From contig NZ_CP139972.1 in NCBI RefSeq assembly GCF_034424315.1, positions 5,828,001-5,892,000 of the forward strand: 64,000 bases of DNA, given 5' to 3'. This stretch comes from Chitinophaga sancti. GTDB lineage: Bacteria > Bacteroidota > Bacteroidia > Chitinophagales > Chitinophagaceae. The position numbers and the translations under genes were made by a program. The notes beneath the pieces were generated by a model. That model did no database searches, was not told the DNA's origin, and saw only the letters and a program-made list of their open reading frames with translations. Within the stretch, counting starts at the first letter, position 1. Each line of letters starts with the position of its first letter. Of the stretch, positions 23,587 through 63,430 are shown in pieces.

Positions 23587-23603
23587 CTCTTATTACATTA
23601 AAG

Positions 23604-25041: not shown

Positions 25042-25137
25042 CATCGATCTTATACATCCTACCAGGCTCATATGTAAAATCCTGAATTTGTAACCTATCT
25101 GGCAGGTTATCGTTAAAGAGTTGAAGAAAATAATGCT

Positions 25138-26229
25138 ATGGCAATACAAAATGAGCAATCCGGCTCCAATGCGAGAGAAGAAGTTTCACTAAAACAACTA
25201 ATCCTTAAGATAAGTGTATGGTATCGCTACTTACTGGGTAAGTGGCTTATTATTGGGATCATTGCCTTATTAGGAGCGGCGTTAGGGTTTTTGTATGGCA
25301 TGTTTGAAAAACCTAAATATGCAGGTGAACTTACTTTTGTGTTGGAGGATGGTTCTAAATCCGGTGGATTATCCTCATATGCTGGTATCGCCAGTCAATT
25401 AGGGGTCAATTTGGGCGGTGGAGGATCTGTAGGTGTATTTTCCTCTGATAATATCCTGGAATTTCTGAAAACCAGGCTGATGGTAGAAAAAGCGTTATTA
25501 TCTCCTGTGGATGTTAATGGAAAGGTCATCAGCCTCGCTGATTTCTATATAGATATATCCGGCATGCGGGAAAAATGGAAGAAAGACCCGAAGAACCAGG
25601 GCAAGGACTATCATTTCCCTCCCGGTAATGATCAAAGAGCAAAGTTTAGCCGCGAAGAAGACAGTGTGCTTGCTTCAATATATAGTCAAATTGTAAATAA
25701 GGAACTTTCAGTAAATAAACCTGATAAAAAGACATCATTTATCAGTGTAAAAACAACTTCTACCAACGAATTTTTTGCTCAGATTTTCACCGAACGCCTG
25801 GTGAAGGTGGCTACTGATTTTTATATTGCTACAAAGACACAGCGGTCTACAAACAGTGTGAATATTTTACAGGCCAAGGCGGATTCCATTTTAAAGCTGA
25901 TGAATGAAAAAACCTATTCGGCAGCTATCAACCGTGACTTGAATCAGAATCCAGTCAGGCAGATTGCAACCGTCAATTCCGAATTGGTAACCCGTGATAA
26001 GACTGTACTACAAACAATATATGCTACAGTGGTACAAAACCTGGAGCTGAGCAAAATGTCAATGGCACAGGAGATGCCTATCATTCAGATTGTCGATAGG
26101 CCTATTATGCCACTGAAAAGGGAAGGCGTTCGTAAACTAACTGCCACTATTATCGGTGCTTTTATTGCTGGTTTTCTAGCCGCTATATTTCTCATTATAA
26201 GGAAGATGATCAAAGAAGTCATGGCCTGA
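25138..26229 (+). CDS. Chain-length determinant (Wzz-type) protein
   Basis: This is a 363-residue inner-membrane co-polymerase. Two transmembrane helices bracket a periplasmic domain: about 34-54 (KWLIIGIIALLGAALGFLYG) and about 336-355 (TIIGAFIAGFLAAIFLII). Between them lies a long helical region. The proline-containing MPIIQIVDRPIMPLKREG stretch just before the second helix is typical of Wzz proteins. There is no cytoplasmic tyrosine-kinase (Wzc) domain. It should set polymer length with the EpsG-type polymerase encoded downstream. Confidence 0.85.
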   Translation: MAIQNEQSGSNAREEVSLKQLILKISVWYRYLLGKWLIIGIIALLGAALGFLYGMFEKPKYAGELTFVLEDGSKSGGLSSYAGIASQLGVNLGGGGSVGVFSSDNILEFLKTRLMVEKALLSPVDVNGKVISLADFYIDISGMREKWKKDPKNQGKDYHFPPGNDQRAKFSREEDSVLASIYSQIVNKELSVNKPDKKTSFISVKTTSTNEFFAQIFTERLVKVATDFYIATKTQRSTNSVNILQAKADSILKLMNEKTYSAAINRDLNQNPVRQIATVNSELVTRDKTVLQTIYATVVQNLELSKMSMAQEMPIIQIVDRPIMPLKREGVRKLTATIIGAFIAGFLAAIFLIIRKMIKEVMA

Positions 26230-26245
26230 GATCTTCCGTATTAAA

Positions 26246-26983
26246 ATGTTTGACATGCCATATCCTACACAAATTATATCTGTCATTACTGTTGTTTACA
26301 ATGGTGCAGCTACCCTGGAAGAGACAATTCAGAGCGTATTAGGACAAAGCTGGCCCAATGTGGAATACATCATTATTGATGGCAACTCTATTGATGGCAC
26401 GCAGGCCATCATCGAAAAGTATAAACCTCAACTGGCTTACTATATCAGCGAGAAAGACAAGGGTATCTATGACGCTATGAATAAAGGTCTGGCGAAGGCT
26501 AAAGGAGATTATTGCATTTTTATGGGTGCAGATGATGTACTGTTACCTAACGTACTGGAGCAAATTGTACCCTTGTTGAAAGATAAAGATACCGTTTACT
26601 ATGGCGACATCATAGTTAAGGGAACGGAAAGGCGCTATGATGGCGCTTTCTCAAAGTTTAAGTTATGTTTTAAAAACATCTGTCACCAATGCATTTTTTA
26701 TCCCAGAAGTGCCTATTCCAAATTAAATTATGATCTGCAATACCGGCTATGGGCAGATTGGGTATATAATATAATACTATGGGGGGAACGCAAGGTGCCA
26801 TATGTCTACATAGGCCGGGATATTTCTATATTCAACGATGGCGGTGTTGGCTCCCTGTCAAGGGACAAAGTGTTTGATGCGAATCGGAAGCTACTGATCC
26901 AACAGCATTTTGGTTCATTTATGAATAGTGTAGTTTCACTGAAAAACCTGCTAAGCAAGGTGAAGGCAAAGTTAATACGATAA
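26246..26983 (+). CDS. Glycosyltransferase, GT2 family (WcaE-like)
   Basis: This is a 245-residue GT-A transferase. It has the conserved start ISVITVVYNGAATLEETIQSVL, the nucleotide-binding IIIDGNSIDGTQAII, the SEKDKGIYDAMNKGLAKAKG segment and the GADD metal motif (about 92-95). This exact series is common to colanic-acid WcaE-like transferases. It has no membrane helices. It lies in the run of closely spaced genes between wzz and the next GT4 gene (4 bases). Confidence 0.87.
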   Translation: MFDMPYPTQIISVITVVYNGAATLEETIQSVLGQSWPNVEYIIIDGNSIDGTQAIIEKYKPQLAYYISEKDKGIYDAMNKGLAKAKGDYCIFMGADDVLLPNVLEQIVPLLKDKDTVYYGDIIVKGTERRYDGAFSKFKLCFKNICHQCIFYPRSAYSKLNYDLQYRLWADWVYNIILWGERKVPYVYIGRDISIFNDGGVGSLSRDKVFDANRKLLIQQHFGSFMNSVVSLKNLLSKVKAKLIR

Positions 26984-26987
26984 CTCA

Positions 26988-28103
26988 ATGGACGGAAAAC
27001 GCAATATATTATTTGTTTGCAGGCGGCTCAATATTGCAGGCGGAAAGGAAAGGGTACTTGTAAACACCGCTTCTTTTCTGGCTGACAGTTTTCAGGTAGG
27101 AATCTTACAGCTCACACAAGCAGATTCTTTTTACCCTGTAGGAACTGGAGTGGACATGTATCATATTGAGGCATCGAATGCCTTTGGCAAGCGTTCCATT
27201 GCAGCTAAGTTGAGAGGATTTATTCAGGATATAAAAATATTACGGAGGTTCATGCAGGATCATTCTACTGATGTGGTGATCAGCGTAGATTATTTTGTAA
27301 GCTGGATGTTTGTTTTGGGTACACTCTTTAGCAAGCGACCTTACCTGCTGATAGGTTGGGAACACATCGGCTACAATAATCCATGGGTGCAGGGCCTGGG
27401 AAGAAAACTAAAAAATTATATACTGAAGCAATTGGATCACCTGGTAGTTCTCACCCGTCACGATGCAGATATATACAACAAGATGGGCATACCCGTGACA
27501 ACCATACCCAATGCAAAATCATTTGAAAGTATTGTCAAAAGTAATTTGGAACAAAAGCGCATCCTCACAATAGGACGTTTGTCTCCCCAAAAAGGGATAG
27601 ATTATTTGTTGGACCTGATCGTAGTACTGAAAGACAGGCTGCATGGATGGAAGTTCATATTGGTGGCGCAGGACGATTTGTTTACTGTAGATGAATTGAA
27701 ACAGTGGATCGCTGAAAAACAGATTGGACACCTGATAGACTTATATCCGCCTACCAGTAAAATTGTAGACTACTATCTGCAGAGTAGTATATACCTTATG
27801 ACATCCCGTAATGAAGGATTACCAATGGTACTTATAGAAGCTATGGAGTGCGGATTACCCTGTGTAAGCTTTGATTGTGAAACAGGACCAGCAGATATTA
27901 TTCAGGATGGAGTGAGTGGTAAACTAGTACCTACCTTCAATTTGGAACGAATGGCAGATAGTGTGTTGGCATTGACGGATGATGCTACAAGAAAGATGAT
28001 GGGAGTGAATGCTGCTGCTTCAGTAGAAAAGTTCTCATTGGAAAGAATAAGTAAGCAATGGCAGGGATTTCTAAATGCGACTAAAAAGAAGGCAGAATGC
28101 TGA
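26988..28103 (+). CDS. Glycosyltransferase, GT4 family
   Basis: This is a 371-residue GT-B transferase. It begins LFVCRRLNIAGGKERVLVNTASFL, with the glycine-rich acceptor loop of PglJ-like enzymes. It continues with IGWEHIGYNNPW and the typical linker ILTIGRLSPQKGIDYLLDLI, and ends with the donor motif SRNEGLPMVLIEAMECGLPCV containing both glutamates of EX7E. The donor and linkage are not predictable. It overlaps the next gene by 7 bases. Confidence 0.87.
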   Translation: MDGKRNILFVCRRLNIAGGKERVLVNTASFLADSFQVGILQLTQADSFYPVGTGVDMYHIEASNAFGKRSIAAKLRGFIQDIKILRRFMQDHSTDVVISVDYFVSWMFVLGTLFSKRPYLLIGWEHIGYNNPWVQGLGRKLKNYILKQLDHLVVLTRHDADIYNKMGIPVTTIPNAKSFESIVKSNLEQKRILTIGRLSPQKGIDYLLDLIVVLKDRLHGWKFILVAQDDLFTVDELKQWIAEKQIGHLIDLYPPTSKIVDYYLQSSIYLMTSRNEGLPMVLIEAMECGLPCVSFDCETGPADIIQDGVSGKLVPTFNLERMADSVLALTDDATRKMMGVNAAASVEKFSLERISKQWQGFLNATKKKAEC

Positions 28104-29212
28104 TATATGTTATCATATTTTTGATCATAGCAGCTTCTTCTTTTGTAGAGGTAGTGGTGAAGGAAGAGTCAATTAAGAAAATGCTGTTCAGATTTAACAT
28201 GCTCGTGCTGATTCTTTTTGCATCACTTAGGTGGACTACCGGTACTGACTGGTATTCCTACCTCGAATATTTTAACGACCTGGATAACTACAGAGAATTT
28301 GAAAGTGGATATGTGATGCTCAATGAAGCCTTCCGCTTCTTTTCAGATAATTATACAGCTTTTCTCATCATAGATATTTCTCTGGCAAGTGCGTTTATAT
28401 GGTATGTGTTGGAAAAATATAGTACTTACCCCAACACATCTTTACTACTATTTTACAGCTATTATTACCTCATTAATTATTTCGGATCCAACCGCCGTAT
28501 CATTGCCATAGGATTGATTTTGATGGCGGGTATGCTTATTGTAAACCGACGATTTTGGCTTGGAAGTATTTTGATATTACTGGCAGCTACATTTCACGTG
28601 ACTAGTTGCCTGTTCTTTATGGTCTTTCTCATTCCAAGAAAGCATCTGAAAACTCCTTTATTAATATCAATTTATATAGCCTGTTTTCTGATTTCAAACC
28701 TTGGGTTGTTACAGTTTATGATCACAAAAGTGTTGGGGATGATTTTCGCAGATAACCCTATTGTGGAAAGAGCTGTAACGTATACCCTGAACTCGGAGAA
28801 TTATCAGCAAAGTTTCCTCGTAAACATGCTGGGTATTGCCAAGCGTTCGCTGTTATTTTTCTTATTCCTGTTTTTCAGAGACAGGATCAAAGATGAAGAT
28901 AAAACAGGACATTTTTCTTACCTGTTCAATATCTACTTTTTCTCAATCTGCTTCTATATTCTGGTGAATAATCAGATTGACCTGTTAAAGGTGATCTCTA
29001 TCTATTTCAGTATTTTTGAACTGGTATTGATCCCATATTTCCTCTTATTATTTATGAAATTAAAGGAAAGGATTCTGGTGAATCTCTTCCTTGTAGCATA
29101 TATAGGTTTTCAGTTTTATTCAGCCATTTTCCTGAATCAATATTCAAATCTATATATGCCATATTATAGTATTTTCTCCGGTCAGGAACGAAGTACCAGC
29201 GATTATGAATAA
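28097..29212 (+). CDS. EpsG-family polysaccharide polymerase (Wzy-like)
   Basis: This 371-residue integral membrane protein has about ten hydrophobic segments and few other features. The N-terminal ASLRWTTGTDWYSYLEYFNDLDNYREFESGY pattern (R-x-x-x-G-x-D-W-x-x-Y) and the following FGSNRRIIAIGLILMAG (R-Q/R motif) are characteristic of the EpsG/Wzy family that joins repeat units in the periplasm. It overlaps its neighbours on both sides (7 and 8 bases), so it is part of a tightly coupled operon. Confidence 0.82.
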   Translation: MLIYVIIFLIIAASSFVEVVVKEESIKKMLFRFNMLVLILFASLRWTTGTDWYSYLEYFNDLDNYREFESGYVMLNEAFRFFSDNYTAFLIIDISLASAFIWYVLEKYSTYPNTSLLLFYSYYYLINYFGSNRRIIAIGLILMAGMLIVNRRFWLGSILILLAATFHVTSCLFFMVFLIPRKHLKTPLLISIYIACFLISNLGLLQFMITKVLGMIFADNPIVERAVTYTLNSENYQQSFLVNMLGIAKRSLLFFLFLFFRDRIKDEDKTGHFSYLFNIYFFSICFYILVNNQIDLLKVISIYFSIFELVLIPYFLLLFMKLKERILVNLFLVAYIGFQFYSAIFLNQYSNLYMPYYSIFSGQERSTSDYE

Positions 29213-30227
29213 GCAATTGAATGTTTTAGTGGTTAGTGGTTCATATCCCCCGGACATCTGTGGGGTTGGTGATTATGTAGGCAAACTTTTTACCACACTG
29301 CAATCACAGGGTGGTATCGTTTTCTCCCTGTATCATAGTCGTAACTGGAAATTGAAATCACTGTTCAGGCATATCAAAAATATCCGATCAGCAAAGGCTG
29401 ATATTATACATATGCAATATCCTACTGAAGGATATGGTTATAGTATGTTGCCTCAGCTGATAGCCTTGTTGTTTAGAAGAAGAACAATATTGACATTGCA
29501 TGAATTGTCTAACAGAAACCCATTTGGGAAACTGGCTACCATACTTTTTTTGTTCATCTCCCGTAAGATTATTTTTACGATAGAAGAAGAACAGGCGTAT
29601 GCAGCTAAAATCTGTCCATGGATCAGGAAGAAGTCAGAGGTGATCAATATCGGGAGTAATATACCTTGTGTGAATGCAGGTGTAGAAAAGCGATTTGAGA
29701 TAGTTTACTTTGGGCATATCCGGCCGGTAAAAGGGATTGAGAAAGTAATTGAGCAGGCGGCAAAGGCAAAAGAACAGCACTTACCCTGGCGGTTTCTCAT
29801 AGTAGGGCAGACTTTATCGAGATTTGAAGACTACTATCAACAATTAAGAGCCGGTGCAAAAGATCTGAATATCACCTGGGTCACAAATGTAGATGATCAG
29901 GAAGTAAGCATCTTATTGCAATCTTCTGCTACCGCTTACTTCCCTTATCCGGATGGAGTAAGCCTGAGAAGGGGAACCTTCTTTGCAGCACTGGTCAATG
30001 GTACTCCAATTATTACTACAAAAGGAGATAAAACACCTTTGAAATTTGAAGAGTTGTGCTATCTGGTAGATAATGATACGGAGGTCATACCTGCTATAAT
30101 GGATATTCTAAGTGGAAGTGAAACTTCGTTATCGAAGCTGGATCGTAGCAGCGTTTATGCGAAGCAGTTTGACTGGGTACATATTGCAGAGCAGCATATT
30201 CGTGTATTTAAAGCATTTAAGAAGTGA
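29205..30227 (+). CDS. Glycosyltransferase, GT4-like
   Basis: This is a 340-residue GT-B transferase. It begins VLVVSGSYPPDICGVGDYVGKL, a typical acceptor-domain start, followed by ADIIHMQYPTEGYGYS. The donor domain has VYFGHIRPVKGIEKVIEQ and FLIVGQ. The usual second glutamate region is divergent (PYPDGVSLRRGTFFAALVNGTPII), so the catalytic arrangement differs from that of its GT4 neighbours. Relatives with this FPDGASFRRGSL-like motif are found in many exopolysaccharide loci. The start overlaps the polymerase gene. Confidence 0.78.
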   Translation: MNKQLNVLVVSGSYPPDICGVGDYVGKLFTTLQSQGGIVFSLYHSRNWKLKSLFRHIKNIRSAKADIIHMQYPTEGYGYSMLPQLIALLFRRRTILTLHELSNRNPFGKLATILFLFISRKIIFTIEEEQAYAAKICPWIRKKSEVINIGSNIPCVNAGVEKRFEIVYFGHIRPVKGIEKVIEQAAKAKEQHLPWRFLIVGQTLSRFEDYYQQLRAGAKDLNITWVTNVDDQEVSILLQSSATAYFPYPDGVSLRRGTFFAALVNGTPIITTKGDKTPLKFEELCYLVDNDTEVIPAIMDILSGSETSLSKLDRSSVYAKQFDWVHIAEQHIRVFKAFKK

Positions 30228-31315
30228 AGAAGATAGCGCTGAACCTGTTGCCTTTTACAGAACGTTTGACCGGCACAGGGTTTTACACCAAACGGCTGAT
30301 TGCTGAGTTACAGCAACTACCTGCTGAATATGAATTTGAATTGCACGTTTATAACCTGGACAATGCTAATGATGTCTTTGCAATTAGTGACCCTGCCTTC
30401 AAGGTGGTGTCACATCACTTCATTCGCAACAGAATGGGGCGCATCTTTTATGAGCAATGCATATTCCCATTTAAAATAAAGGCAGATATACTGGTATCTA
30501 CGTCGGTCGTATTGCCCTTGTTATTACCTCACCATATCAAAAAAGTGTCAGTAATTCATGACCTGATCCCTTTTATTTTTAAACAGAAATATGGTTTGAT
30601 ACAGGGAGCATATGTAAAGCTGTTTACTAAGTGGAGTGCAAGAATGGCTGATATTGTGATAACCATTTCAGAGAACTCTCAGAAAGATATTATCCAAAGG
30701 CTAGGTGTGGCGGCTTCCCGGATTAGAATTGTATACAATTTTGTGCCGGAAGAAAATGAGAAGACACCTGCGACAATACCTACTATCACCGGACCTTTTA
30801 TCATTACAGTATCCACTATACAGCCGGGCAAGAACCTCATTCGGTTGTTTGAAGCATTTCAACCTATTGCTCAGGAAAAAGGGTTGAAGCTGGTTGTAGT
30901 AGGAGGAAAGGGCTGGAAATATGACAATATCTTTGCAAAAGTGAATGAACTGAACCTCAGTGAACATATAATTTTCACTGGTTATGTAAGTGATGAGCAA
31001 CTGAGAGGTTATTACCAGCATGCGTTGGGCCTGGTATATGTAAGCCTGTATGAAGGATTTGGTATTCCACCACTGGAAGCGATGATCCGTAAATGCCCGG
31101 TAGTCGTATCTAACAATTCTTCTTTGCCGGAAGTGGTCGGAAAAGCAGGCATTTATGTCAATCCGGAGAGTGTAGAAAATATCAGGGAGGGTATACTGCA
31201 ATTATTTGACGAGGCTGTTGTAAATGAGAAGAAGCAGTATATGGCAGCAGAGGTGGCAAAATTTGATAGACAACGTGAGGCGGAAAAGTTTTTAAAAATC
31301 ATGAAAGCACTGTAG
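30224..31315 (+). CDS. Glycosyltransferase, GT4 family
   Basis: This is a 363-residue GT-B transferase. Initiation is at a GTG (30224) that overlaps the upstream TGA (GTGA), a coupling arrangement. It has LTGTGFYTKRLIAEL in the N-terminal domain and the mannosyltransferase-like series VSVIHDLIPFIFKQKYG, ADIVITISENSQKDI, FIITVSTIQPGKNLIRLFEAF and VSLYEGFGIPPLEAMIRKCPVV with both EX7E glutamates. This set is often seen in mannosyl- or rhamnosyl-transferases. That assignment is a family-level guess. Confidence 0.85.
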   Translation: MKKIALNLLPFTERLTGTGFYTKRLIAELQQLPAEYEFELHVYNLDNANDVFAISDPAFKVVSHHFIRNRMGRIFYEQCIFPFKIKADILVSTSVVLPLLLPHHIKKVSVIHDLIPFIFKQKYGLIQGAYVKLFTKWSARMADIVITISENSQKDIIQRLGVAASRIRIVYNFVPEENEKTPATIPTITGPFIITVSTIQPGKNLIRLFEAFQPIAQEKGLKLVVVGGKGWKYDNIFAKVNELNLSEHIIFTGYVSDEQLRGYYQHALGLVYVSLYEGFGIPPLEAMIRKCPVVVSNNSSLPEVVGKAGIYVNPESVENIREGILQLFDEAVVNEKKQYMAAEVAKFDRQREAEKFLKIMKAL

Positions 31316-31341
31316 CTATTGCATGTAATTTATATTCGTAT

Positions 31342-32169
31342 ATGATGGATTTTTCAGTATTAATGTCTGTGTACAGGAATGATGATGTGGAGGCTCTTAG
31401 GGCCAGTGTGGAGAGCTTATTGAAACAGGAACGCAGGCCTTCGGAAATTGTGATCGTATTGGACGGACCTGTGCCAGAAGACATTACAAAGCTGCTTAAT
31501 TCTTATAAGGAGCAATACAGCCCGCTCTTTAACCTGGTACCCTTACCAGTGAATGTTGGTTTAGGAAAAGCGTTGAGTATCGGGTTGGAGCATTGTAATC
31601 ACGAGCTTATCGCAAGAATGGATGCAGATGATATATCCAAACCGGCACGTTTTGCAAAGCAGGTAGGATTTATGGAGCGACACCAGGAGGTAGATCTGGT
31701 GGGTAGCTGGATTGAAGAATTTATTGGTGTTACTGACAATGTGGTATCTCTGCGCAAGGTGCCGGAAACTTATGAGGAGATTGTGAAATTTGCAAAGGTC
31801 AGGTCTCCTTTTAACCATCCAACGGTAGTTTTTAGAAAGGAGGCTATCCGGGAGGTGGGGGGATACCATGATTATGGTACATTTGAAGATTACCATCTAT
31901 GGTCCAGACTGATCGTTAACAACAAAAAATGTCATAACCTTCAGGAAGGGCTGCTTTTTTTTCGCACTACCCGCAACTTATATAAGAGGCGGGGAGGCTG
32001 GAAAAAGGCGGTGGCAGAATGGAAGCTGCAATGTTACTTTCTTTCCATAGGCTTTATAAGCAGAACGCAGTTCCTTCGCAATGTTGCGTCAAGAGGCCTT
32101 GCAAGGCTAGTACCCAATTTTGTTCGTGCAATGCTCTACAAAGTAGTATTAAGTAGTAAAAAGGTGTAA
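31342..32169 (+). CDS. Glycosyltransferase, GT2 family
   Basis: This is a 275-residue GT-A transferase. It shows [26 protein letters not shown], the donor-site [41 protein letters not shown] with the DxD motif (near residues 94-96), and later [13 protein letters not shown]. This pattern is common for amylovoran/AmsE-like GT2 enzymes. It is the last transferase before the GDP-fucose genes, 20 bases upstream of gmd. Confidence 0.87.
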
Positions 32170-32189
32170 AAACATATAAAACCGAATTA

Positions 32190-33302
32190 ATGAAAATAGC
32201 ACTTATCACAGGCATTACGGGCCAGGATGGAGCTTATCTGACAGAGTTTCTTTTGAAGAAGGGATATTTTGTACATGGCATAAAACGCCGTAGCTCATTA
32301 TTTAACACTGACCGTATTGATCATCTCTATCAGGATCCCCATGAACAAAAGGTGAATTTTCAGCTTCACTACGGTGACCTGACAGATTCAACTAACCTCA
32401 TTCGTATCATCCAACAAACACAACCTGATGAGATTTACAACCTGGGTGCAATGAGTCATGTGCAGGTTAGTTTTGAAACACCGGAGTATACTGCAAATGC
32501 TGATGGTATAGGGGTGTTACGTATTCTTGAAGCAGTACGCCTGTTGGGTCTGACTAAGAAAACAAGAATCTATCAGGCATCTACATCAGAGCTGTATGGT
32601 CTGGTTCAGGAAGTTCCTCAATCAGAGCGTACGCCATTTTACCCTCGCTCTCCATATGGTGTTGCCAAAATGTATGGTTACTGGATTACTGTGAACTATC
32701 GCGAAGCATATGATATGTATGCCTGCAACGGCATCCTGTTCAACCATGAAAGCCCATTAAGAGGAGAAACTTTTGTAACAAGAAAGATTACCCGCGGTGT
32801 TGCCAAAATAGCACTGGGTATGCAGGATAAACTGTTCATGGGTAACCTGGATGCAAAGCGTGACTGGGGCCATGCAAAAGATTATGTTGAAGCCATGTGG
32901 CTGATGCTGCAACAGGATACACCAGAAGACTATGTGATCGCCACAGGAGTCACTACCTTAGTAAGAGATTTCATCAGCAAGGCATTTGCGATAGCTGGTA
33001 TTGAAGTTGAATTTAAAGGAACCGGTGTCGATGAGGTAGGTATTGTTAAAAGTGTAAGTCCTGATGTGATAGGAGTAAAAGTAGGCACAGAAGTAGTTGC
33101 GGTTGACCCCCGTTATTTCCGCCCTACAGAAGTGGAACTGTTAATCGGCGATCCTGCCAAAGCACAATCCAAATTGGGATGGAAACCTAAATACGATCTG
33201 GATATGCTGGTGAAAGAAATGGTACTGGCTGACCTGGAACTGTTCCAGCGCGAAAAATTGCTAAAAGATGCCGGTTATAAAGTATTAAATCAATTCGAAT
33301 AG
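32190..33302 (+). CDS. gmd: GDP-mannose 4,6-dehydratase
   Basis: This 370-residue NADP-dependent SDR enzyme converts GDP-D-mannose to GDP-4-keto-6-deoxy-D-mannose, the first committed step to GDP-L-fucose. The Rossmann motif [17 protein letters not shown] is at the start, followed by [18 protein letters not shown], the catalytic Thr/Ser-Glu in QASTSELYG, the YxxxK pair in [12 protein letters not shown] and the substrate segment [17 protein letters not shown]. Length is standard. It is 5 bases upstream of fcl and followed by the guanylyltransferase gene, so the three provide GDP-mannose and GDP-fucose for the locus. Confidence 0.96.
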
Positions 33303-33307
33303 ACATT

Positions 33308-34243
33308 ATGCAGCAACTGGATAAAATATATGTAGCAGGCCATCGTGGAATGGTAGGATCTGCCATTGTGAGAAGATTGGAGAAGGCTGGATTTAAAAAT
33401 ATTGTAACAAGAACCTCTTCAGAGCTGGACCTGCGTAATCAGCAGGCTACGGCCACTTTCTTTGAGCAGGAACAACCGGATTACGTTTTCCTGGCCGCTG
33501 CAAAGGTGGGAGGCATTGTGGCAAATAATACATACAAGGGAGATTTCATTTATGAAAATCTAATGATTCAGAACAATGTAATTCATTCAGCTTATACAAG
33601 CGGCGTGAAGAAACTCATGTTCCTCGGATCCTCCTGTATCTATCCAAAACTCGCGCCGCAACCACTGAAGGAAGAGTACCTCCTCACCGGACTGCTGGAA
33701 CCTACCAATGAACCTTATGCTATTGCCAAGATAGCAGGGATCAAAATGTGTGATGCCTACAGAGCACAATATGGTTGTAACTTTATCTCGGTAATGCCTA
33801 CTAACCTTTATGGCCCTAATGATAATTACGACCTGAAAAACTCCCACGTATTACCAGCATTACTACGCAAATTTCATGAAGCAAAAGAGGCTGGTACACC
33901 TGAAGTCGTGATCTGGGGTTCAGGCTCCCCACTTCGCGAATTCCTGCATGCAGATGATATGGCAGATGCTTGTTTTTATCTCATGCAGCATTACAATGAA
34001 GAAGGGCTTGTAAATATTGGAGTAGGAGAAGATCTAAGTATATTAGACCTTGCCAGGATGATAAAAGAAATTGTAGGCTATGAAGGAAGATTAGTCTTCG
34101 ACTCTTCTAAACCTGATGGTACCCCACGCAAATTAATGGATGTTTCAAAGTTGCATGGATTGGGATGGAAAGCTAAGATAGGACTAAAAGAAGGCATCAC
34201 CGCCGTTTATCAGGAAGTGCAACATCTTAAATGGAAAAACTGA
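33308..34243 (+). CDS. fcl: GDP-L-fucose synthase
   Basis: This 311-residue SDR enzyme carries out the 3,5-epimerisation and 4-reduction that yield GDP-L-fucose. It has the nucleotide motif [16 protein letters not shown], the [14 protein letters not shown] segment and the catalytic Tyr/Lys in [18 protein letters not shown]. The [21 protein letters not shown] stretch is highly typical of Fcl/WcaG. Its end overlaps a possible early start of the next gene. Confidence 0.96.
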
Positions 34244-34245
34244 TT

Positions 34246-35325
34246 ATGAAAAATCACAACTATGTATTTATTATGGCTGGTGGAGTGGGAAGCCGCTTCT
34301 GGCCGCAAAGCAGACAGGCTTGCCCCAAGCAGTTCATCGATATACTTGGTGTAGGAAAATCCCTATTGCAGTTAACCTATGAACGTTTTCTGAAGGTCTG
34401 CCCGCAGGAAAATATCTTCGTAGTGACCAGTACTGAGTACCATGGGCTCATTTTAGAGCATCTGCCGGAAATAGAAGAGAAAAACATCCTCTGTGAACCT
34501 TGTCGCAACAATACTGCTCCCGGAATTGCTTATGCTACATTCAAAGCATTGGCATTAGATCCTGATGCATGTATGGTTATTGCACCTTCAGATCATTTTA
34601 TCCTGAATGAAGCACAGTTTGTAAAGGATATCAATGAATCACTGGAAATAGTAGCCAAACAGGATATCCTGCTCACCTTAGGTATTACACCAACCAGACC
34701 TGATACTGGCTACGGATATATTAATTTCGAAAAAACACCGGGAAGTAAGATCTGTAAAGTTCTGAGATTTACCGAGAAGCCTGTGTTGGAAAAGGCAAAG
34801 GAATTTCTGGCAGATGGGAATTACGTTTGGAATGCAGGTATCTTCATCTGGAATGTAAATACAATCATGCGCGCGTTCGAACAGTATTCAAAAGAATTGT
34901 ATGATATATTTAAGGAAGGCATTCCTTACTACAACACATCCGGAGAACAAGACTTCATAAATACGCATTATAAGAACACACCTAAGATCTCTATTGATTA
35001 CGCAATCATGGAAAAGGCAGATAATGTTTCAACAATGCCTGTTGATTTCGGCTGGAGTGATTTGGGTACATGGGCTTCTCTGTATCAGGTGATGGAGAAA
35101 AATCCGGCTAATAATGTGATCCCTGCAGGTGAACATCAACTGGAAGACACAGCAGACTGTATTATACAACTGCCTAAAGATAAACTTGCCGTGATCCGGG
35201 GGCTGAAAGATTATATTGTCATCGACAATAAAAACGTATTGTTGATCTACCCGAAGTCTCTGGAACAAGAGATCAAGAAGATCGCAGAACAGCTGAAGGA
35301 AAATGAACTACATAATTATCTTTAG
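34246..35325 (+). CDS. Mannose-1-phosphate guanylyltransferase
   Basis: This enzyme of about 359 residues makes GDP-mannose from mannose-1-phosphate and GTP. The signature FIMAGGVGSRFWPQSRQACPKQF is at the N-terminus, followed by NILCEPCRNNTAPGIAYA, IAPSDHFI, GYGYINFEK, FTEKP and VWNAGIFIWNV. It lacks the C-terminal phosphomannose isomerase domain of bifunctional ManC/AlgA enzymes, so isomerase activity must come from elsewhere. The ATG at 34246 is preferred because it fits the family N-terminus. An in-frame ATG at 34231 overlaps fcl. It feeds Gmd directly. Confidence 0.93.
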   Translation: MKNHNYVFIMAGGVGSRFWPQSRQACPKQFIDILGVGKSLLQLTYERFLKVCPQENIFVVTSTEYHGLILEHLPEIEEKNILCEPCRNNTAPGIAYATFKALALDPDACMVIAPSDHFILNEAQFVKDINESLEIVAKQDILLTLGITPTRPDTGYGYINFEKTPGSKICKVLRFTEKPVLEKAKEFLADGNYVWNAGIFIWNVNTIMRAFEQYSKELYDIFKEGIPYYNTSGEQDFINTHYKNTPKISIDYAIMEKADNVSTMPVDFGWSDLGTWASLYQVMEKNPANNVIPAGEHQLEDTADCIIQLPKDKLAVIRGLKDYIVIDNKNVLLIYPKSLEQEIKKIAEQLKENELHNYL

Positions 35326-38160: not shown

Positions 38161-40062
38161 ATGCATTATGTTACAGTAGAAGGCCTGACTAAGGCCTATG
38201 GCGCAGGCCCCTTATTTAAAGATATTTCTTTCCATATCGAAGAAGGTGACAAAATCGCCCTGGTGGCGCTGAATGGTACCGGTAAATCCACCCTGCTCCG
38301 CATCCTCTGCGGCCAGGAAACCCCCGATGCCGGCACTGTCTGGATCCATAAAGATGTAACAGTAGTAATGCTGGAACAGCAAAACGCTTTCAATCCCGGA
38401 GAAACCATCTCCCAACACATATTCTCACAAGGACACCCTGTGCTTTCCGCTATCAGGGATTACGAAATGCTGACTGAAGAAGGTGAGGAACCAGACCTCG
38501 ATAAGCTGACCAAAGCAATCGAACGTATGGATGAGCTGAACGCCTGGCATTTTGATTCCAAGGTAAAACAGATCCTCGGCAAGCTGAACATCCACCATAT
38601 GGAACAGCTGATGGGCAGCCTGTCCGGTGGCCAGGTAAAGAGAGTAGCGCTGGCTAAGGTACTCATCGATATCGGCTTTGAACACAGGCATACCCTGCTC
38701 ATCATGGATGAACCGACCAACCACCTGGATGTAAGCATGATCGAATGGCTGGAAAACTACCTGGACCAGGAGAAAGTAACCCTGCTGCTCGTAACCCACG
38801 ACCGTTACTTCCTCGATAGCGTGTGTAATGAAATTATGGAGCTGGATCAGCAACAGCTGTTTATATACAAAGGCGATTACGAGAACTACCTGGAAAAGAA
38901 AGCTACCCGCGAAGAAATGGCCAAATCCAGTGTGGAAAAAGCCCGCAACGTGTTCCGCAAGGAACTGGAATGGATGCGCAAGCAGCCCAAAGCCCGTACC
39001 ACCAAGTCCAAATCCCGGATCGATGCCTTTACCGAAGTAAAAGAAAAAGCCAGCGTAAAACTGGAAAAACAGCAGCTGGAACTCAATGTAAAGATGACCC
39101 GCCTGGGTGGCAAGATCATCGAAATGAAAAAAGTCTATAAGGCCTACGGTGATTTACAGATAATGAAAGGCTTCGACTATACTTTCAAAAGAGGAGAACG
39201 CGTAGGTGTGGTTGGAAAGAACGGTGTGGGTAAATCCACATTCCTCAACATGTTGCTGGGACTGGAACAACCTGATTCCGGAAAGATCAATACCGGGGAA
39301 ACGATTGTATTCGGAAACTACGATCAGCGTGGACTGGTAATTAAAGAAGATATGCGGGTGATTGAATTCGTGAAGAATATCGCCGAAAACTTCCCCCTTG
39401 CAGATGGTACAAAAGTAAGTGCGGCCCAGTTCTTACAGTTATTCCTCTTCCCACCGGAAAAGCAGTATACCTACATCTCTAAACTGAGTGGTGGAGAGAA
39501 GAGAAGATTACACTTGTTGAGCATACTCTTCCGCAACCCGAACTTCCTGGTATTGGATGAGCCTACGAACGACCTGGATCTGCCTACGCTGAGCATCCTG
39601 GAAGACTTCCTGCTGGATTTCCAGGGATGTCTGATCATCGTGAGCCACGACCGTTATTTCATGGATAAACTGGTAGATCACCTGTTTGTATTTGAAGGAC
39701 AAGGGGTGGTGAGTGACTTCCCGGGCAACTATACCCAGTATCGTGAATGGGAAAAAGATAGGCCGGAACGTGAAAAAGAAGAACAAAAAGTAGCACCTGT
39801 TGCTCCGGTCGTGGAGGCTGCACCCGCTGCAGCACCGGCAGAGAAAGGGCGCAAAATGACCTTCAAGGAAAAGCGTGAACTGGAAATGCTGGAAAAGGAA
39901 ATTGCTGACCTGGAGAAAGAAAAAGAAAACCTGGATGCAAAGATGGCAGCAGGGGATGTACCATATGCAGATCTGGAACCCATGGCGCGCCGCGTTGGAG
40001 AAGTGATCAATTTGCTGGACGAAAAAGGGATGCGCTGGTTAGAACTAAGTGAATTAAGCTAA
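38161..40062 (+). CDS. ABC-F family ATPase (Uup-like)
   Basis: This 633-residue cytoplasmic protein has two ATP-binding cassettes and no membrane segments. Cassette 1 has Walker A ALNGTGKSTLL, signature LSGGQVKRVALAK and Walker B LLIMDEPTNHLD. Cassette 2 has GKNGVGKSTFL, LSGGEKRRLHLL and FLVLDEPTNDLD. A charged linker of the ABC-F type (KARNVFRKELEWMRKQPKAR) joins them. The C-terminal Pro/Ala-rich linker and coiled coil (about 580-630, KEKRELEMLEKEIADLEKEK) are characteristic of Uup. Members bind ribosomes or branched DNA. It sits between two terminators, so it is monocistronic. Confidence 0.92.
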   Translation: MHYVTVEGLTKAYGAGPLFKDISFHIEEGDKIALVALNGTGKSTLLRILCGQETPDAGTVWIHKDVTVVMLEQQNAFNPGETISQHIFSQGHPVLSAIRDYEMLTEEGEEPDLDKLTKAIERMDELNAWHFDSKVKQILGKLNIHHMEQLMGSLSGGQVKRVALAKVLIDIGFEHRHTLLIMDEPTNHLDVSMIEWLENYLDQEKVTLLLVTHDRYFLDSVCNEIMELDQQQLFIYKGDYENYLEKKATREEMAKSSVEKARNVFRKELEWMRKQPKARTTKSKSRIDAFTEVKEKASVKLEKQQLELNVKMTRLGGKIIEMKKVYKAYGDLQIMKGFDYTFKRGERVGVVGKNGVGKSTFLNMLLGLEQPDSGKINTGETIVFGNYDQRGLVIKEDMRVIEFVKNIAENFPLADGTKVSAAQFLQLFLFPPEKQYTYISKLSGGEKRRLHLLSILFRNPNFLVLDEPTNDLDLPTLSILEDFLLDFQGCLIIVSHDRYFMDKLVDHLFVFEGQGVVSDFPGNYTQYREWEKDRPEREKEEQKVAPVAPVVEAAPAAAPAEKGRKMTFKEKRELEMLEKEIADLEKEKENLDAKMAAGDVPYADLEPMARRVGEVINLLDEKGMRWLELSELS

Positions 40063-58611: not shown

Positions 58612-59238
58612 TTAATTACATTTGGCCAGGTATCTTTCTGTCTCTGCCAGGCCCCAGTGTGGATATAGATCTGCGGGCTTTTCCGTCTTGAACAATTCTG
58701 CTGCTTTTACAAACAGTGGTTTCGCTTTTTCCTTTCCACCACCAATGTATTCGGGTTTACCAAAAGTAGAAGCACCATCCAGGAAGTAGAGGCGGGGATT
58801 GTTAGGATCCAGTTTATATCCTTCCTGCAGGTAAGTATACGCCTTGATGCCATAGGTTTTAAAACGCTCCATGGGGTTTACCAGCATCTGTATAGTCGAT
58901 GCCATATTGTGGATGGTGCAGAGCTCCGCATTTTTCTGGATAGCTTCTCCTTTTGCTGCCAGCTCATTTGCTTTCTGACCTACGGCATCTTTATCCGCTT
59001 TAGGATCGCCAAAACCAATGCGGGTCTGTGCCAGTCCTGCATAATAGTAAGGCAGCCACTGTGTTTTTTCTGCATCTCCGATCCGTTCAAATGCCTGCGA
59101 TACTTCAGTGAGTTGTTCCGGGGTTTTAGCAGAATCGAGTAGCATAAGGTTATGCTGCATTGCAGCTACATATTTGCTGCTTTGAGCATGCACACCCATG
59201 GTGGTCAGTAAAGCAAAGGCTAAGATGATTTGTTTCAT
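58612..59238 (-). CDS. Secreted helical-repeat (TPR-like) protein
   Basis: This is a 208-residue exported protein with signal peptide MKQIILAFALLTTMGVHAQS. The mature region is all-helical with repeat-like spacing (EQLTEVSQAFERIGDAEKTQWLPYYYAGLAQTRIGF; QKNAELCTIHNMAS; YLQEGYKLDPNNPRLYFLDG), as in tetratricopeptide proteins. The phrase KLDPNNPRLYFLDGASTF followed by FGKPEYIGGG occurs in a family of Bacteroidota secreted proteins often adjacent to TonB receptors. It is 9 bases from the receptor gene, so co-transcription is likely. Function unknown. Confidence 0.72.
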   Translation of the reverse strand: MKQIILAFALLTTMGVHAQSSKYVAAMQHNLMLLDSAKTPEQLTEVSQAFERIGDAEKTQWLPYYYAGLAQTRIGFGDPKADKDAVGQKANELAAKGEAIQKNAELCTIHNMASTIQMLVNPMERFKTYGIKAYTYLQEGYKLDPNNPRLYFLDGASTFGKPEYIGGGKEKAKPLFVKAAELFKTEKPADLYPHWGLAETERYLAKCN

Positions 59239-59247: not shown

Positions 59248-61461
59248 TTAAAGGTTATCAATTGCGTCTTGTCTTCTGTCTATACCCCAGTTCAGGATCA
59301 GGCCAACGAAGAAGGTTCGTTGTGCCGGTGGCAGAATGGGTTGTTTGACCATGGCATTATAAGAGTAGTTGTAGCCTGCTATATTCGTACGGCCCAGCAG
59401 GTTGGTGGCAGATGCATACCAGATTGCGGCTGCTTTGCCCATCCTGGTCAGGTGGTAAATACTCAGGTCCAGTGTCTGGTAGCCGTTCGTTTTGCCCTGA
59501 TCTTTGATGTAATATGTTTTGCCGCTGCCATCAGGTAGTATGGCATAATAAGGCCTGCCGGTAGCAAAGGTATAAGTAAGACTGGCACCGGTGCCGATTT
59601 TTGTGATAAACCGTTTCACAGAGGCGGTGGCGGTGTGGTTGGCTGCAATACCCGGCATGAGTGCTGTTGGGTAATTCAGGTAATCACGTTTCGTATCCAG
59701 GTAGGAATAACTGAGACTGTAATCCAGGTGCTTGAAAGTGGACTTATCACGGAAATACAGTTCAACTCCTTTGGCATAACCACTGCCGCTGTTATTGTAC
59801 GAAGGCACAGTTTTAACCAGGTCTTCATATTGCTTGTAGAAAGCTTCCACTCTCAGGAAGGTACCACGTACCTGTCGCTGGTAGTTGATGATATAGTGAG
59901 TGGCTTTGGTATAATCCAGTGATGGGCTGACCTGCAAATAGGAGTTCTCTGGTTTCTGGTAGAACTGTCCGTATGCAGCAGAGATGGTAGATCCTTTGCC
60001 CATCCTATAGGCCAATGAGGCACGGGGTGCCACTTTGGCCTTTTGAAGGATGGAAGAATATTCAGCCCTGACACCAACCGTGGCCACGAGCGAATTCGTA
60101 AAGTAAAGTTCTGTTTCAGCAAAGCCTGCAGTTAGCTGATCAGGCAAATGCTTATTAACGCTATTATAAACAAAGTCATATTGTGAGTACCAGTATTCAC
60201 TTCCAAAGCGAATGGTATTCAGGTTGCTGAATCTTTTCTCGATCACGGCTTTTCCCTGTACCAGGCTTTCCTTTCTGTCAAGCCTGAAGTTCACCGTATC
60301 CAGCCAGTATTTTTCGAAGGTATATTGCGGCACATTGTGTGCATCCTGCAATTGACTGCGGATGCTGTCGTGGGTAATGCTGTAGCTGGCAGAGAGTGTC
60401 ATTTTCCATCCATCTCCCAGGTTCTCTTTCCAGCTGATGGCATTGAACCAGTTGTAATTACTGAGGGTAAGGGCAGTTTTCATATCAACACTGTCAATGT
60501 TGAAGTTGCGTACACCCAGTTTGTTATAACTGAAAGTAGTGTAGTATTTAATCATCCCGTTTTGGGTCTTGATGCGGAAATTGGCATCTGCATTATGAAA
60601 CCGCGGACGGATAAAATAATCGGGTGTTTGTTTCACCAGCGCATAATACAGGCTGGTGTTGGTATATTGATAATTGAAGCCAAAGGACGATTTGCCGTTC
60701 TTAGCCAGTTGCTGTATACCCAGGCTGTTCTGGATAGGAGAGATGAAGGCATTGGCTTCTGATTGCTGGGGGAGATCGATGGTTTCCATGATCAATACGG
60801 AACTGAGGGCTTGTCCGTACAGGGCGGAATAACCACCGGTGCTGAAAGCAAACCCTTTGAACAGGGTAGCGGGGTACCTGCCGCGGCTGGGTATATTAGA
60901 GGCACTCAGGTAGTAGGGTCTGTTCACCAGGGAGCCGTCTATGAACTGTTTAGCCTCATAGCTGTCGCCGCCTCTTACAAAAAGGCCTTCCTGGTTACTG
61001 ATCTGCTGTGCACCGGGCAGGGTATTGACGGCACGGGAAATGTCTGCATTGGCACCAGCCGTGGTTTGCACGTCCAGGGAGCTTAATACAGTCAATCCTT
61101 TTTTACCCATGCCTCCTCCGAAGGCCCCTGCGGTGACCGTGACGGCATTCAGTTCACTGATCTTTTCCTTCAGGGCAAAGTCCAGTTGAACGGGCTGGCC
61201 TGCCAGGGTAATGGTTTGTATTTTGGTTTCATACCCCGTGGCCGAAGCGACCACCGTAATAGTACCTTTTTCCGTGGTACGGATCCGGAAATGTCCGCTG
61301 GAATCCGTGGTCGTACCATCGTAGGTGTCTTTTAAAGCAACAGATACCCCGGGTATTGCCTGCTTTTTGTTGTCCGTAACCGAACCGGTTATTTGCGCCT
61401 GCCCAAGGGCTACGGTGGTTAAAAGCAGGAACAATATTGTGGTAAGTATCTTATTGTACAT
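59248..61461 (-). CDS. TonB-dependent receptor with carboxypeptidase-regulatory-like domain
   Basis: This is a 737-residue outer-membrane transporter. After the signal peptide (MYNKILTTILFLLLTTVALG) comes a CarbopepD_reg_2 domain (about 22-95, ITGSVTDNKKQAIPGVSVAL). The plug holds RAVNTLPGAQQISNQEGLFVRGGDSYEAKQFIDGSLV, with the Leu-Pro-Gly-Val-like motif and RGG typical of receptors for siderophores or small peptides. The barrel ends with aromatic strands (FFVGLILNWG). It is shorter than SusC types and has no STN domain. It lies in a tight run: 10 bases after the receiver gene and 9 before the TPR-like gene. A role in uptake, export or immunity toward the peptide encoded at the head of the operon is inference. 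Confidence 0.9.
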   Translation of the reverse strand: MYNKILTTILFLLLTTVALGQAQITGSVTDNKKQAIPGVSVALKDTYDGTTTDSSGHFRIRTTEKGTITVVASATGYETKIQTITLAGQPVQLDFALKEKISELNAVTVTAGAFGGGMGKKGLTVLSSLDVQTTAGANADISRAVNTLPGAQQISNQEGLFVRGGDSYEAKQFIDGSLVNRPYYLSASNIPSRGRYPATLFKGFAFSTGGYSALYGQALSSVLIMETIDLPQQSEANAFISPIQNSLGIQQLAKNGKSSFGFNYQYTNTSLYYALVKQTPDYFIRPRFHNADANFRIKTQNGMIKYYTTFSYNKLGVRNFNIDSVDMKTALTLSNYNWFNAISWKENLGDGWKMTLSASYSITHDSIRSQLQDAHNVPQYTFEKYWLDTVNFRLDRKESLVQGKAVIEKRFSNLNTIRFGSEYWYSQYDFVYNSVNKHLPDQLTAGFAETELYFTNSLVATVGVRAEYSSILQKAKVAPRASLAYRMGKGSTISAAYGQFYQKPENSYLQVSPSLDYTKATHYIINYQRQVRGTFLRVEAFYKQYEDLVKTVPSYNNSGSGYAKGVELYFRDKSTFKHLDYSLSYSYLDTKRDYLNYPTALMPGIAANHTATASVKRFITKIGTGASLTYTFATGRPYYAILPDGSGKTYYIKDQGKTNGYQTLDLSIYHLTRMGKAAAIWYASATNLLGRTNIAGYNYSYNAMVKQPILPPAQRTFFVGLILNWGIDRRQDAIDNL

Positions 61462-61471: not shown

Positions 61472-61852
61472 TTAATTTAGTTTGGATGCGTGCAGGTCCT
61501 TAATCCTTCCTATTTCTTTTTTGAAGAGCAGGAAGCTTACCGGCTTGTTTAAATATCCAATATTGGCTAATTGTCTGGGTAATATATCCAGCACATAGTC
61601 ATATGGATACTTGGTGACGAAAACATATACAATGTCTTTCTGGAAAATGTCGTCAAACACCAGGTTTTCTATACCTGTAATACTGACGTCTATAAAAACT
61701 ATATCCGGAGCGGACTTTCTGATCGTAGACAGTATGTCGGAGGCTTTGGCCAATTTGGCAATGAGCCGTATTCCATCCGTCTGACTGATATAGTATTCCA
61801 GCATATCAACACTGAGCGGGTCTTCGTCTATTATGATGCATGTCAAATACAT
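61472..61852 (-). CDS. Stand-alone response regulator receiver domain
   Basis: This is a 126-residue receiver domain without an output domain. It has an acidic pocket Asp9-Glu10-Asp11 (IIIDEDP), phospho-acceptor Asp55 (IVFIDVSITG), Thr80 (VFVTKYPYD) and Lys103 (YLNKPVS). The layout (TCIIIDEDPLSVDMLEYYI) is closest to LytTR-family receivers, yet the usual 'D-x-x-M-P' after the acceptor Asp is replaced by DVSITG. The ATG at 61852 is chosen, because it starts the fold and lies 29 bases after the precursor stop. The frame extends to 62164, but that extension covers the antiparallel and out-of-frame precursor region. It probably competes with or modulates the neighbouring LytS/LytTR pair. Confidence 0.85.
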   Translation of the reverse strand: MYLTCIIIDEDPLSVDMLEYYISQTDGIRLIAKLAKASDILSTIRKSAPDIVFIDVSITGIENLVFDDIFQKDIVYVFVTKYPYDYVLDILPRQLANIGYLNKPVSFLLFKKEIGRIKDLHASKLN

Positions 61853-61881: not shown

Positions 61882-62058
61882 TTAGGCGGTCACAGTCGCT
61901 AAGCTGGATACACCGGTAGGCAGGGTATTGATAGAAGAATAGTTGTTGCCCTGACCATTGGAGCCCTTTCCACAACCGCAGGCGTTCAGCTTGCTGATGA
62001 TTTCCTTGTTCAGGCTCAGGTTTGATTGTTTGCCGGTAGTTTGTTTTGCTTGTTTCAT
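61882..62058 (-). CDS. Putative RiPP (class I lanthipeptide-type) precursor peptide
   Basis: This 58-residue peptide is below the size usually annotated. The leader holds LSLNKEIISKLN (residues 14-25), which matches the conserved 'LxLxKExIxxLN' leader motif of Bacteroidota class I lanthipeptide precursors, including Chitinophaga types. The core that follows is ACGCGKGSNGQGNNY then SSINTLPTGVSSLATVTA, with Cys27 and Cys29 and nine Ser/Thr, suited to dehydration and thioether formation. There is no Gly-Gly protease site between leader and core. The gene precedes a receiver gene by 29 bases and heads an apparent operon. Possible promoters on the minus strand: TTTG-21-TCACTTTG (-7 at 62140-62133), or AAAGTTTG at 62098-62091. 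Confidence 0.75.
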   Translation of the reverse strand: MKQAKQTTGKQSNLSLNKEIISKLNACGCGKGSNGQGNNYSSINTLPTGVSSLATVTA

Positions 62059-62173
62059 AGTGGTAGTTTTTTTGTTTGTTGATTACGATACAAACTTTCA
62101 ACTTTTCCCGCCGGGCAAAAATTCTTTTAGACCAAAGTGATGTCTTGCCCAACGAAATGATCAAATCGTTTCA

Positions 62174-62317: not shown

Positions 62318-63430
62318 ATGAAACCAAGACCATTTAATTTTGCCCGATTACTTATCCCGGAGAATGTTAAGTATGTACACATCGTATTCTGGTGTATCAT
62401 GTTAGCGCTGTATACCCTGAATATTATGTTCCTTTTCTCGACAAATGCACTTATTTCCCTCATATTCGGTTTAAGGAACCTGCTGGGGGCCATGACATTC
62501 TTTTATTTCATCTTTTATGTGCTGGTACCGGTTTTCCTGAAAAAGAAGAAACGGGCGCTGTTCCTTGTCGGCCTCTTAGTGCCCTTCTGGCTCTGGGCAG
62601 TGATCAACTATGTGTTTATGTCGCTGCTGGTTAATAACTTCTCTATATCTGACAGGGATCTGCTGGCCTCTGTAAAGGTCATTGCCGACAAATCGATCTG
62701 GCAGATCCTGGCACCGCATACTGTTTTCCAGACTTTCATCGGGGTACTCATGATCGTGACACCTCCTATTACTATTAAACTGGTCGAAGAGATCTCCCGG
62801 TCTATGACCAGGTCACTCCGCCTGGAAAGAGATAACCTGAACCTGGAGGTGAGTTTCCTGCGATCACAACTGAATCCGCACTTTTTATTCAATACCCTTA
62901 ATAATATCTATTCGCTGTCTGTCAGGAATAATCCAAAAGCACCCGAATTGATTATGCAGCTCTCCGATATGCTGCGGTATACATTGTACGAATCCAACCG
63001 CGAAGTAGTAGAGCTGTCGAAAGAAGCCGATTTCCTATATAACTATGTTCAGTTAGAGAAAGCCAGGTATGGAAAGGATGTAGATATCCAGTTTATCTAC
63101 GATTCAGAATCCCTGGAAGGGTTCAAGATCGTACCCCTGCTCACATTCCCGTTCATCGAGAATTCATTCAAGCACGGGCTGGATACCACCACCAAAGATC
63201 CCTGGCTAAAGATTTCATTTGAGGTGGCGGACAATACCCTCTATTTTGAAATCGCAAACAGTAAAGGAGACGAATCATTATTCAAACATCATAAAGAATC
63301 CGGAACGGGGGGGATAGGGATTGCAAATACGCAGAAACGCCTGTCCTTATTATACCAGGATAAATATTCATTGTCGATTAACAATAGTCCGGACTCCCAT
63401 AGTATCAACCTTAACATAACTCTTATCTAG
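62318..63430 (+). CDS. Sensor histidine kinase, LytS/YehU type
   Basis: This is an inner-membrane kinase of about 370 residues. Four hydrophobic helices lie in residues about 22-165. A linker (LVEEISRSMTRSLRLERDNLNLEVSFL) leads to the His_kinase domain with phospho-acceptor His188 in LRSQLNPHFLFNTLNNIYSLS. The ATPase part has PLLTFPFIENSFKHGL (N-box) and GTGGIGIANTQKRLSLLY (G-box). An in-frame GTG at 62309 is an alternative start; GGAGG directly precedes the ATG at 62318. It is followed by the LytTR regulator gene 2 bases later, so the two are a coupled pair, and it is divergent from the precursor peptide gene. Confidence 0.9.
   Translation: MKPRPFNFARLLIPENVKYVHIVFWCIMLALYTLNIMFLFSTNALISLIFGLRNLLGAMTFFYFIFYVLVPVFLKKKKRALFLVGLLVPFWLWAVINYVFMSLLVNNFSISDRDLLASVKVIADKSIWQILAPHTVFQTFIGVLMIVTPPITIKLVEEISRSMTRSLRLERDNLNLEVSFLRSQLNPHFLFNTLNNIYSLSVRNNPKAPELIMQLSDMLRYTLYESNREVVELSKEADFLYNYVQLEKARYGKDVDIQFIYDSESLEGFKIVPLLTFPFIENSFKHGLDTTTKDPWLKISFEVADNTLYFEIANSKGDESLFKHHKESGTGGIGIANTQKRLSLLYQDKYSLSINNSPDSHSINLNITLI

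Follow-up and report, generated by a model that had tools for sequence, protein, structure and literature searches.

A conserved peptide gene in Chitinophaga as a probable member of a LytTR-regulated module, at a locus where the LanB gene is missing

Background

The question raised by the locus described here is whether a frame of 58 residues, situated near the end of a 64,000-nucleotide stretch of Chitinophaga DNA (the window, G000:C1:5828001-5892000 of a host genome that consists of one contig of 8.42 Mb), encodes a genuine precursor-type peptide and, if so, what kind of system the peptide serves. An original prediction, made from the letters of the window, had assigned the frame to the class I lanthipeptides of Bacteroidota, which include the pinensins, had remarked that the window held no synthetase, cyclase or ABC exporter, and had placed the necessary enzymes beyond the 64 kb or in trans. 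We find that the gene is genuine and that its assignment to the class I lanthipeptides is not supported. At odds slightly better than even (roughly 0.53), we read it as the peptide gene of a LytTR-autoregulated module, the LanB gene of which is missing at this locus and in which a TonB receptor and its partner follow the receiver gene instead. The relevant features are the following:

58612-59238, minus strand: 208-aa protein, receptor companion, accompanying the receptor family in the loci examined
59248-61461, minus strand: TonB-dependent-receptor-like protein with a CarboxypepD_reg domain, 737 aa, 10 bp after the receiver
61472-61849, minus strand: stand-alone receiver-domain protein, 125 aa, clustering with the receivers of LanB loci
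61882-62058, minus strand: precursor-type peptide, 58 aa, with leader LSLNKEIISKLN, CGCG and Ser/Thr-rich core YSSINTLPTGVSSLATVTA
62117-62157, minus strand: operator block GTTG-N17-GTCTAA, a 21-bp direct repeat and putative site of the LytTR regulator
62318-63430, plus strand: histidine kinase of LytS type (PF06580), oriented away from the peptide operon, with a predicted start codon
63433-64000, plus strand: LytTR response regulator, 248 aa, extending past the end of the window

Results and discussion

The frame is a conserved gene

The frame on the minus strand has an ATG start, its coordinates take in the stop codon, and its full translation is MKQAKQTTGKQSNLSLNKEIISKLNACGCGKGSNGQGNNYSSINTLPTGVSSLATVTA. 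Residues 14-25 read LSLNKEIISKLN and residues 27-30 CGCG, just as the original prediction had it, and a Gly-Gly cleavage site is absent. The core comprises two Cys (27 and 29) and nine Ser/Thr, both Cys being N-terminal to all nine.

The gene is present in 5 of 148 genomes, the host counted. The other four copies are 95-97% identical, carriers among the relatives being Chitinophaga silvisoli and [Flexibacter] sp. ATCC 35208; the leader motif is intact in all five genomes and LSLNKEIISKLNACGCGKG is invariant in them. Compared with the window, one relative shows 10 synonymous to 2 non-synonymous codon changes; the count is 12 to 3 for each of the remaining three, which are almost identical to one another. 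Against the window, all four copies have a dN/dS of 0.074 (0.05-0.07 for the receiver gene), and the comparison of G031 with G046 (dS 0.136, dN 0.054) gives a weaker signal. Judged from these codon comparisons the selective constraint on the peptide gene is real, to be taken with the caution that the small sample of copies and the weaker G031/G046 signal call for. A search of 5.8 billion proteins with the single peptide sequence led to one protein cluster. Taken by its conservation, 61882-62058 is a real gene, beyond chance.

Related peptides lie in a five-gene module that includes LanB

Relatives of the receiver, with 29-37% identity, are encoded directly upstream of LanB genes in other Chitinophaga genomes. 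Loci were chosen by the presence of such a receiver relative near LanB (20 were fetched, and then 4 more); the kinase, the regulator, the peptide and the operator played no part in the choice. The same one-strand gene order, namely LytS kinase - LytTR regulator - short peptide - receiver - LanB, was found in 23 of the 24 loci, that is in the 20 of the first set (including the peptides of L096 and L107) and in three of the four of the second. The exception (L201, G004:C9:1776000-1794000) has LanB, kinase, regulator, a 57-aa ORF with a GTG start and the receiver (hit at G004:C9:1783644), and shows neither a KEII peptide nor an operator match. The window has the first four gene types of the module and differs at the position of LanB; moreover, its peptide operon is divergent from the kinase and regulator genes, whereas all five genes are co-directional in the 23 loci.

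The peptides of the 20 loci share a leader end KE(I/V)(I/V)xK(A/T)D that is followed by a Ser/Thr-rich core. A profile made of these 20, with the window peptide left out, scores the window peptide at 35.9 bits and thereby places it at the top of the 564 window ORFs (the runner-up reaches 5.3 bits, the best of 10,000 shuffles 11.7), and the match consists of two parts, the leader with 23.7 bits and the core around SSINTLPTG with 12.7 bits. Family profile A2, which was built with the window peptide and the 20 and whose matches to those are therefore expected, has 28 strong matches in 27 of 79 Chitinophaga genomes (E < 1e-14), seven of them outside the profile; the two strong matches that lack an exact operator have near operator matches. 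Weak matches (E 0.003-0.008; G068, G010, G005 and G067:C1:3715223) were left out of the family count. All family proteins that bear an NCBI name are called hypothetical protein. Core Cys are absent from all 42 other family-profile proteins (P0003-P0044, some of which are the peptides of the 20 loci), and the leader end K(A/T)(D/E) is found in all 42; the two window-type sequences are the only family members with core Cys and with KLN at the leader end.

The two module LanBs that were examined carry PF04738 and PF14028, i.e. both domains of full-length LanB in Pfam, and the 20 module LanBs make up a clade of their own, which includes neither the host's LanB nor 10 others (SH-aLRT 100, quick tree). 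With the host LanC as query no LanC was found within the 18 kb around each of the 20 LanBs or at the 3 further module loci; this search used one query sequence, which still picked up a 24%-identical LanC at L208. Coordinates point the same way: among the matches listed no LANC_like place lies beside any of the 23 module LanBs, in contrast to the 10 other LanBs in the tree, all of which have such a place no more than about 2 kb away. The LanB-bearing relatives therefore seem to yield peptides that are dehydrated and linear; we know of no product that has been assigned to them.

The window LytTR regulator and the regulators of the 20 loci form one clade (support 100/99) against 22 LytTR paralogs of the host, in a tree that omits one short match (L136). 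The window regulator is sister to the 20, for which support is moderate (84/82), and this placement does not separate a loss of LanB from a lineage that never had it. Because the leader was kept, we consider loss in the window lineage likelier than a late gain of LanB elsewhere, both being possible. The window receiver joins the receivers of the 20 loci (SH-aLRT 99, quick tree without bootstrap) and has, judged by eye, the acidic pocket, the phospho-acceptor Asp and the Lys; it is very divergent, and its long end branch (2.0, flagged as such) suggests that its role may have changed. The module kinases are 36-50% identical to the window kinase, in a kinase tree without outgroup. A receiver match in another genus (G104) has a kinase adjacent, and no LanB was found on its 9.3-kb contig.

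The window thus shares with the Chitinophaga family the peptide homology, the clades of the LytTR regulator and the receiver, a kinase that is related by identity, and the 21-bp operator treated below; it lacks the adjacent LanB, the Cys-free core and the K(A/T)(D/E) leader end.

A direct repeat precedes the peptide genes

Each of the 20 loci has a bipartite site, GTCG-N17-(G/A)TCTAA, at 61-84 nt ahead of the peptide start, and the site recurs in three of the four loci added later. In the window GTCTAA ends 68 nt before the start codon of the peptide. A matrix derived from the 20 loci gives the window site 21.9 bits (the lowest training site has 19.4) and the next-best place on either window strand 6.8. 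The exact pattern TTNGTYGN13TTNNGTCTAAWA occurs at 28 sites in 26 of the 79 Chitinophaga genomes, as compared to 5 sites for the reversed-pattern control; 26 of the 28 lie directly upstream of a family peptide, and in the host genome the window site is the sole exact match. At the other two (G027:C4:580799 and G067:C1:6816071), 10 kb of surrounding sequence contain neither a family peptide nor a module gene; they were taken as chance matches, their number being compatible with the 5 control sites. Binding to direct repeats is established for LytTR regulators, AgrA among them (PMC4227749). By its position and score, 62117-62157 is a plausible binding site for the window LytTR regulator.

A TonB receptor and its companion take the place of LanB

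All five peptide-bearing genomes, the host counted, have the receiver, then the TonB receptor, then the 208-aa protein, and none of them has LanB there. The 208-aa protein has no match in Pfam or NCBIfam. The receptor family is present in 79 of 79 Chitinophaga genomes and the 208-aa partner accompanies the receptor in 12 of 12 loci examined, five of which are of the window lineage; the two consequently form a general pair and not a cluster gene, and the receptor was rejected as a lanthipeptide-specific partner. Elsewhere (L116, G026:C9:71410) a related receptor/208-aa pair directly follows a LytS kinase and a LytTR regulator, with a gap of ~100 bp between regulator and receptor; the pair may be a LytTR output at other loci too.

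The original prediction was right about what the window lacks: the LanB, LanC and LanM families have no match in the 47 window ORFs scanned against Pfam (a set without the small and the overlapping ORFs), and no ABC exporter was seen among them; for the sole ABC_tran protein (38161-40059) two ATPase domains are listed, but a membrane domain is not.

Membership of the class I lanthipeptides is not supported

The curated leader model L1a (NCBIfam NF038153, lant_leader_L1a) gives the peptide 17 bits, below its cut-off of 22. With a profile built on 22 KKLxLxK precursors (from the host's LanB/LanC locus and 7 other LanB loci) it reaches 2.0 bits, less than the best of 2,000 shuffles (10.2). Neither LanB nor LanC is part of the cluster, and while the core does combine Cys with Ser/Thr, the Cys precede the Ser/Thr, and the 42 relatives are Cys-free. 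Together with the lack of LanC at the 23 module loci (in the single-sequence search mentioned above), these results led us to reject it as a precursor of the class I, pinensin-like type. The locus, and not the lanthipeptide leader model, is the best evidence for the peptide.

Enzymes that could act in trans do exist in the host. Its one LanB (C1:6.352-6.357 Mb), which falls in the other LanB clade (SH-aLRT 100), lies 0.46 Mb away and is accompanied by LanC and two Cys-bearing precursors; the locus is present in all five genomes that bear the window peptide. There are three LANC_like places in the genome, all outside the window. A second LanC-like protein is encoded at C1:3319522-3320601 (392 aa), and a protein of 880 aa (C1:4.434-4.437 Mb; L216:6098-8740(+), G000:C1:4434097-4436739) combines RamC_N, kinase and LanC-like domains; the models that come closest to the latter are those of the class IV and III synthetases, with scores under the NCBI cut-offs of both (LanL 239 of 650 bits, LanKC 182 of 575 bits), and no obvious precursor was seen among the short ORFs beside it. 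The original suggestion that the enzymes lie beyond the 64 kb or act in trans consequently stands as far as candidates are concerned, but nothing in the sequence of the peptide ties it to the distant LanB or to the class III/IV-type synthetase.

A distant LanB with LanC, or a synthetase of class III/IV type, might nevertheless dehydrate the peptide and cyclise it via its two Cys to a bioactive lanthipeptide. We consider this doubtful, though it is the strongest of the alternatives. It is in line with the maintenance of the host's LanB/LanC locus in five of five genomes and with the fact that the LanB-less peptides alone in the family have core Cys and KLN at the leader end, and the L1a score of 17 bits is indeed higher than that of three other family peptides (14.2 bits or nothing). 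Against it speak the position of both Cys ahead of all nine core Ser/Thr and, as far as the LanB is concerned, the KKLxLxK profile, the separate clade of the host LanB and the leader matrix, in which the window peptide scores 13.5, as opposed to 41-56 for the 20 leaders used in training (the host LanB/LanC locus supplied two) and 32-36 for the host's two other orphan precursors; even a Cys-free family member (L101) scores higher, at 17.3. For a leader that has converged on the host's own LanB, the matrix and the profile are likewise weak to negative.

Another candidate, kinship with the GG/Cys precursors of KEVISKL type in G068 and G010, was rejected: 8 of 11 leader residues match the window peptide, and the profile built from 5 such peptides scores it at 8.8 bits, below the best shuffle (12.8). 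The precursors themselves (L194 and L195) are tandem GG-type, Cys-rich peptides with leader LQLDKEVISKL that have LanC and LanB within a few kb; it is possible that they link the Cys-free family to true lanthipeptides.

The peptide might also undergo no dehydration whatsoever and act, secreted or in the cytoplasm, as a regulatory ligand of the kinase, the receiver or the TonB receptor. We hold this to be unlikely, as the leader motif is fully kept in five of five genomes, which would be unexpected if no enzyme read it, the Ser/Thr-rich core is kept, and candidate enzymes are present in the genome. The proposal does, however, agree with the absence of LanB from the operon in all five genomes where the peptide gene still has a dN/dS of 0.07 and a preserved S/T-P-T pattern in its core, with the misfit between the leader and the substrates of the remaining LanB, and with the common strand and close spacing of peptide, receiver and receptor genes. 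That the frame is a chance ORF or the decaying remnant of a lost LanB cluster is hardly credible, for against the absence of LanB at the locus, the sub-threshold score in the standard leader model and the single cluster returned from 5.8 billion proteins stand the conservation, the codon pattern, the profile score and the operator score.

A possible working of the locus

The most likely description of the window peptide is that of a LytTR-autoregulated, signal-type peptide that is modified in trans, if at all. The LytS kinase would respond to a signal, for which the matured, presumably exported, peptide is the obvious candidate, and the LytTR regulator would then bind the 21-bp direct repeat and switch on the peptide, the receiver, the receptor and the 208-aa protein, probably as one transcript. 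The result would be a closed, autoinducing loop with one exact target site in the genome. The receiver could function as a phosphate sink or as a brake on the kinase. Where LanB is part of the locus, the peptide would undergo dehydration; in the window lineage it would remain unmodified or be modified in trans. Dehydration would here require a distant enzyme, i.e. LanB or the class III/IV-type synthetase, after which CGCG would allow thioethers, or it could serve otherwise. None of the genes in the module was recognised as an exporter, protease or immunity gene.

More tentatively, and with less confidence than we would give its negation, the 23 LanB loci can be viewed as a type of module hitherto unreported for Bacteroidota, in which LanB dehydrates a Cys-free peptide without the help of a cyclase, so as to yield a linear dehydropeptide autoinducer of LytS/LytTR. 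The window would then represent the case where a TonB receptor has replaced the enzyme, the peptide bears Cys, and a RiPP signal formerly modified in cis has been rewired so as to be modified in trans, or not at all.

Relation to known systems

The resemblance to the Bacteroidota class I lanthipeptides consists of a short precursor, a leader of the LxLxKxxI kind and a Ser/Thr-rich core, in a family with members that adjoin a full-length LanB (both domains in the two examined); the differences are that the window has neither LanB nor LanC in cis and stays below the L1a cut-off, and that the module family has Cys-free cores, no LanC found at 23 loci and LanBs in a separate clade. In the peptide loops of Gram-positive bacteria that involve LytTR regulators, such as Agr, Com and Blp, the peptide is the signal. 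These loops likewise combine a histidine kinase, a LytTR regulator and a short peptide gene preceded by a direct-repeat site, and by analogy the peptide is a natural candidate for the signal here. Unlike them, the module has a LytS-type kinase (PF06580), a stand-alone receiver and, in the relatives, LanB, and no dedicated exporter or protease was seen in it; the signal function is putative. Nisin, an autoinducing lantibiotic with NisRK, provides a precedent for a two-component system beside the gene of a LanB substrate, but the module has a LytTR regulator and no identified LanC, transporter, protease or immunity gene, and the window has no LanB.

To our knowledge, peptide quorum sensing is little known in Bacteroidota. 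In case the family peptides are autoinducers, they would constitute dehydrated-peptide signals in this phylum. The LanB-less lineage is a natural experiment on the purpose of LanB, as the regulators, the operator and the peptide family are alike and LanB is absent from the locus.

A literature search, which lay mostly outside the subscription journals, found no description of a kinase-regulator-peptide-receiver-LanB module. A large lanthipeptide survey took LanC as its start, considered seven genes on each side and left out ORFs whose core has no Cys (PMC7268733); given this starting point and this filter, a module that combines LanB with Cys-free peptides and lacks LanC would have been invisible to it. 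No LanB whatsoever turned up when Bacteroidales were screened with BAGEL4 (PMC10352776).

Further observations

Beside the module at two loci, proteins of 377-410 aa (L088:1251-2480(-) and L100:15758-16888(+)) show a weak N-terminal match to TIGR04280, the geopeptide radical-SAM maturase (E 0.014 and 0.00012, respectively), and no Pfam match; they are possibly degenerate maturases. The host genome has two orphan peptides with KKLxLxK leaders, of 41 and 53 aa (L003, G000:C1:2533454-2533534(+), and L007, 7474122-7474196(-)), which score 20.2 and 14.9 bits with L1a and lie far from the only LanB of the host. A 56-aa ORF with leader KKTLTLNKLKVSLFN (L217:8184-8354(+), in G000:C1:3313000-3327000) is situated near the second LanC-like protein (L217:6517-7695(-)), and kinase- and LytTR-like ORFs are close to it (by eye; LytTR match at C1:3324053).

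Within the window, a radical SAM protein is encoded at 13426-14505, 48 kb from the peptide, and the region 18705-35325 holds an exopolysaccharide-type set, i.e. Poly_export/SLBB, a flippase, EpsG, glycosyltransferases, GDP-mannose dehydratase, an epimerase and a nucleotidyltransferase. Just past the end of the window, downstream of the LytTR regulator, L014:2523-8834 contains AMP-binding and ketosynthase genes as well as, by eye, reductase-like and small carrier-like ORFs, and resembles a cluster of the aryl polyene or resorcinol type.
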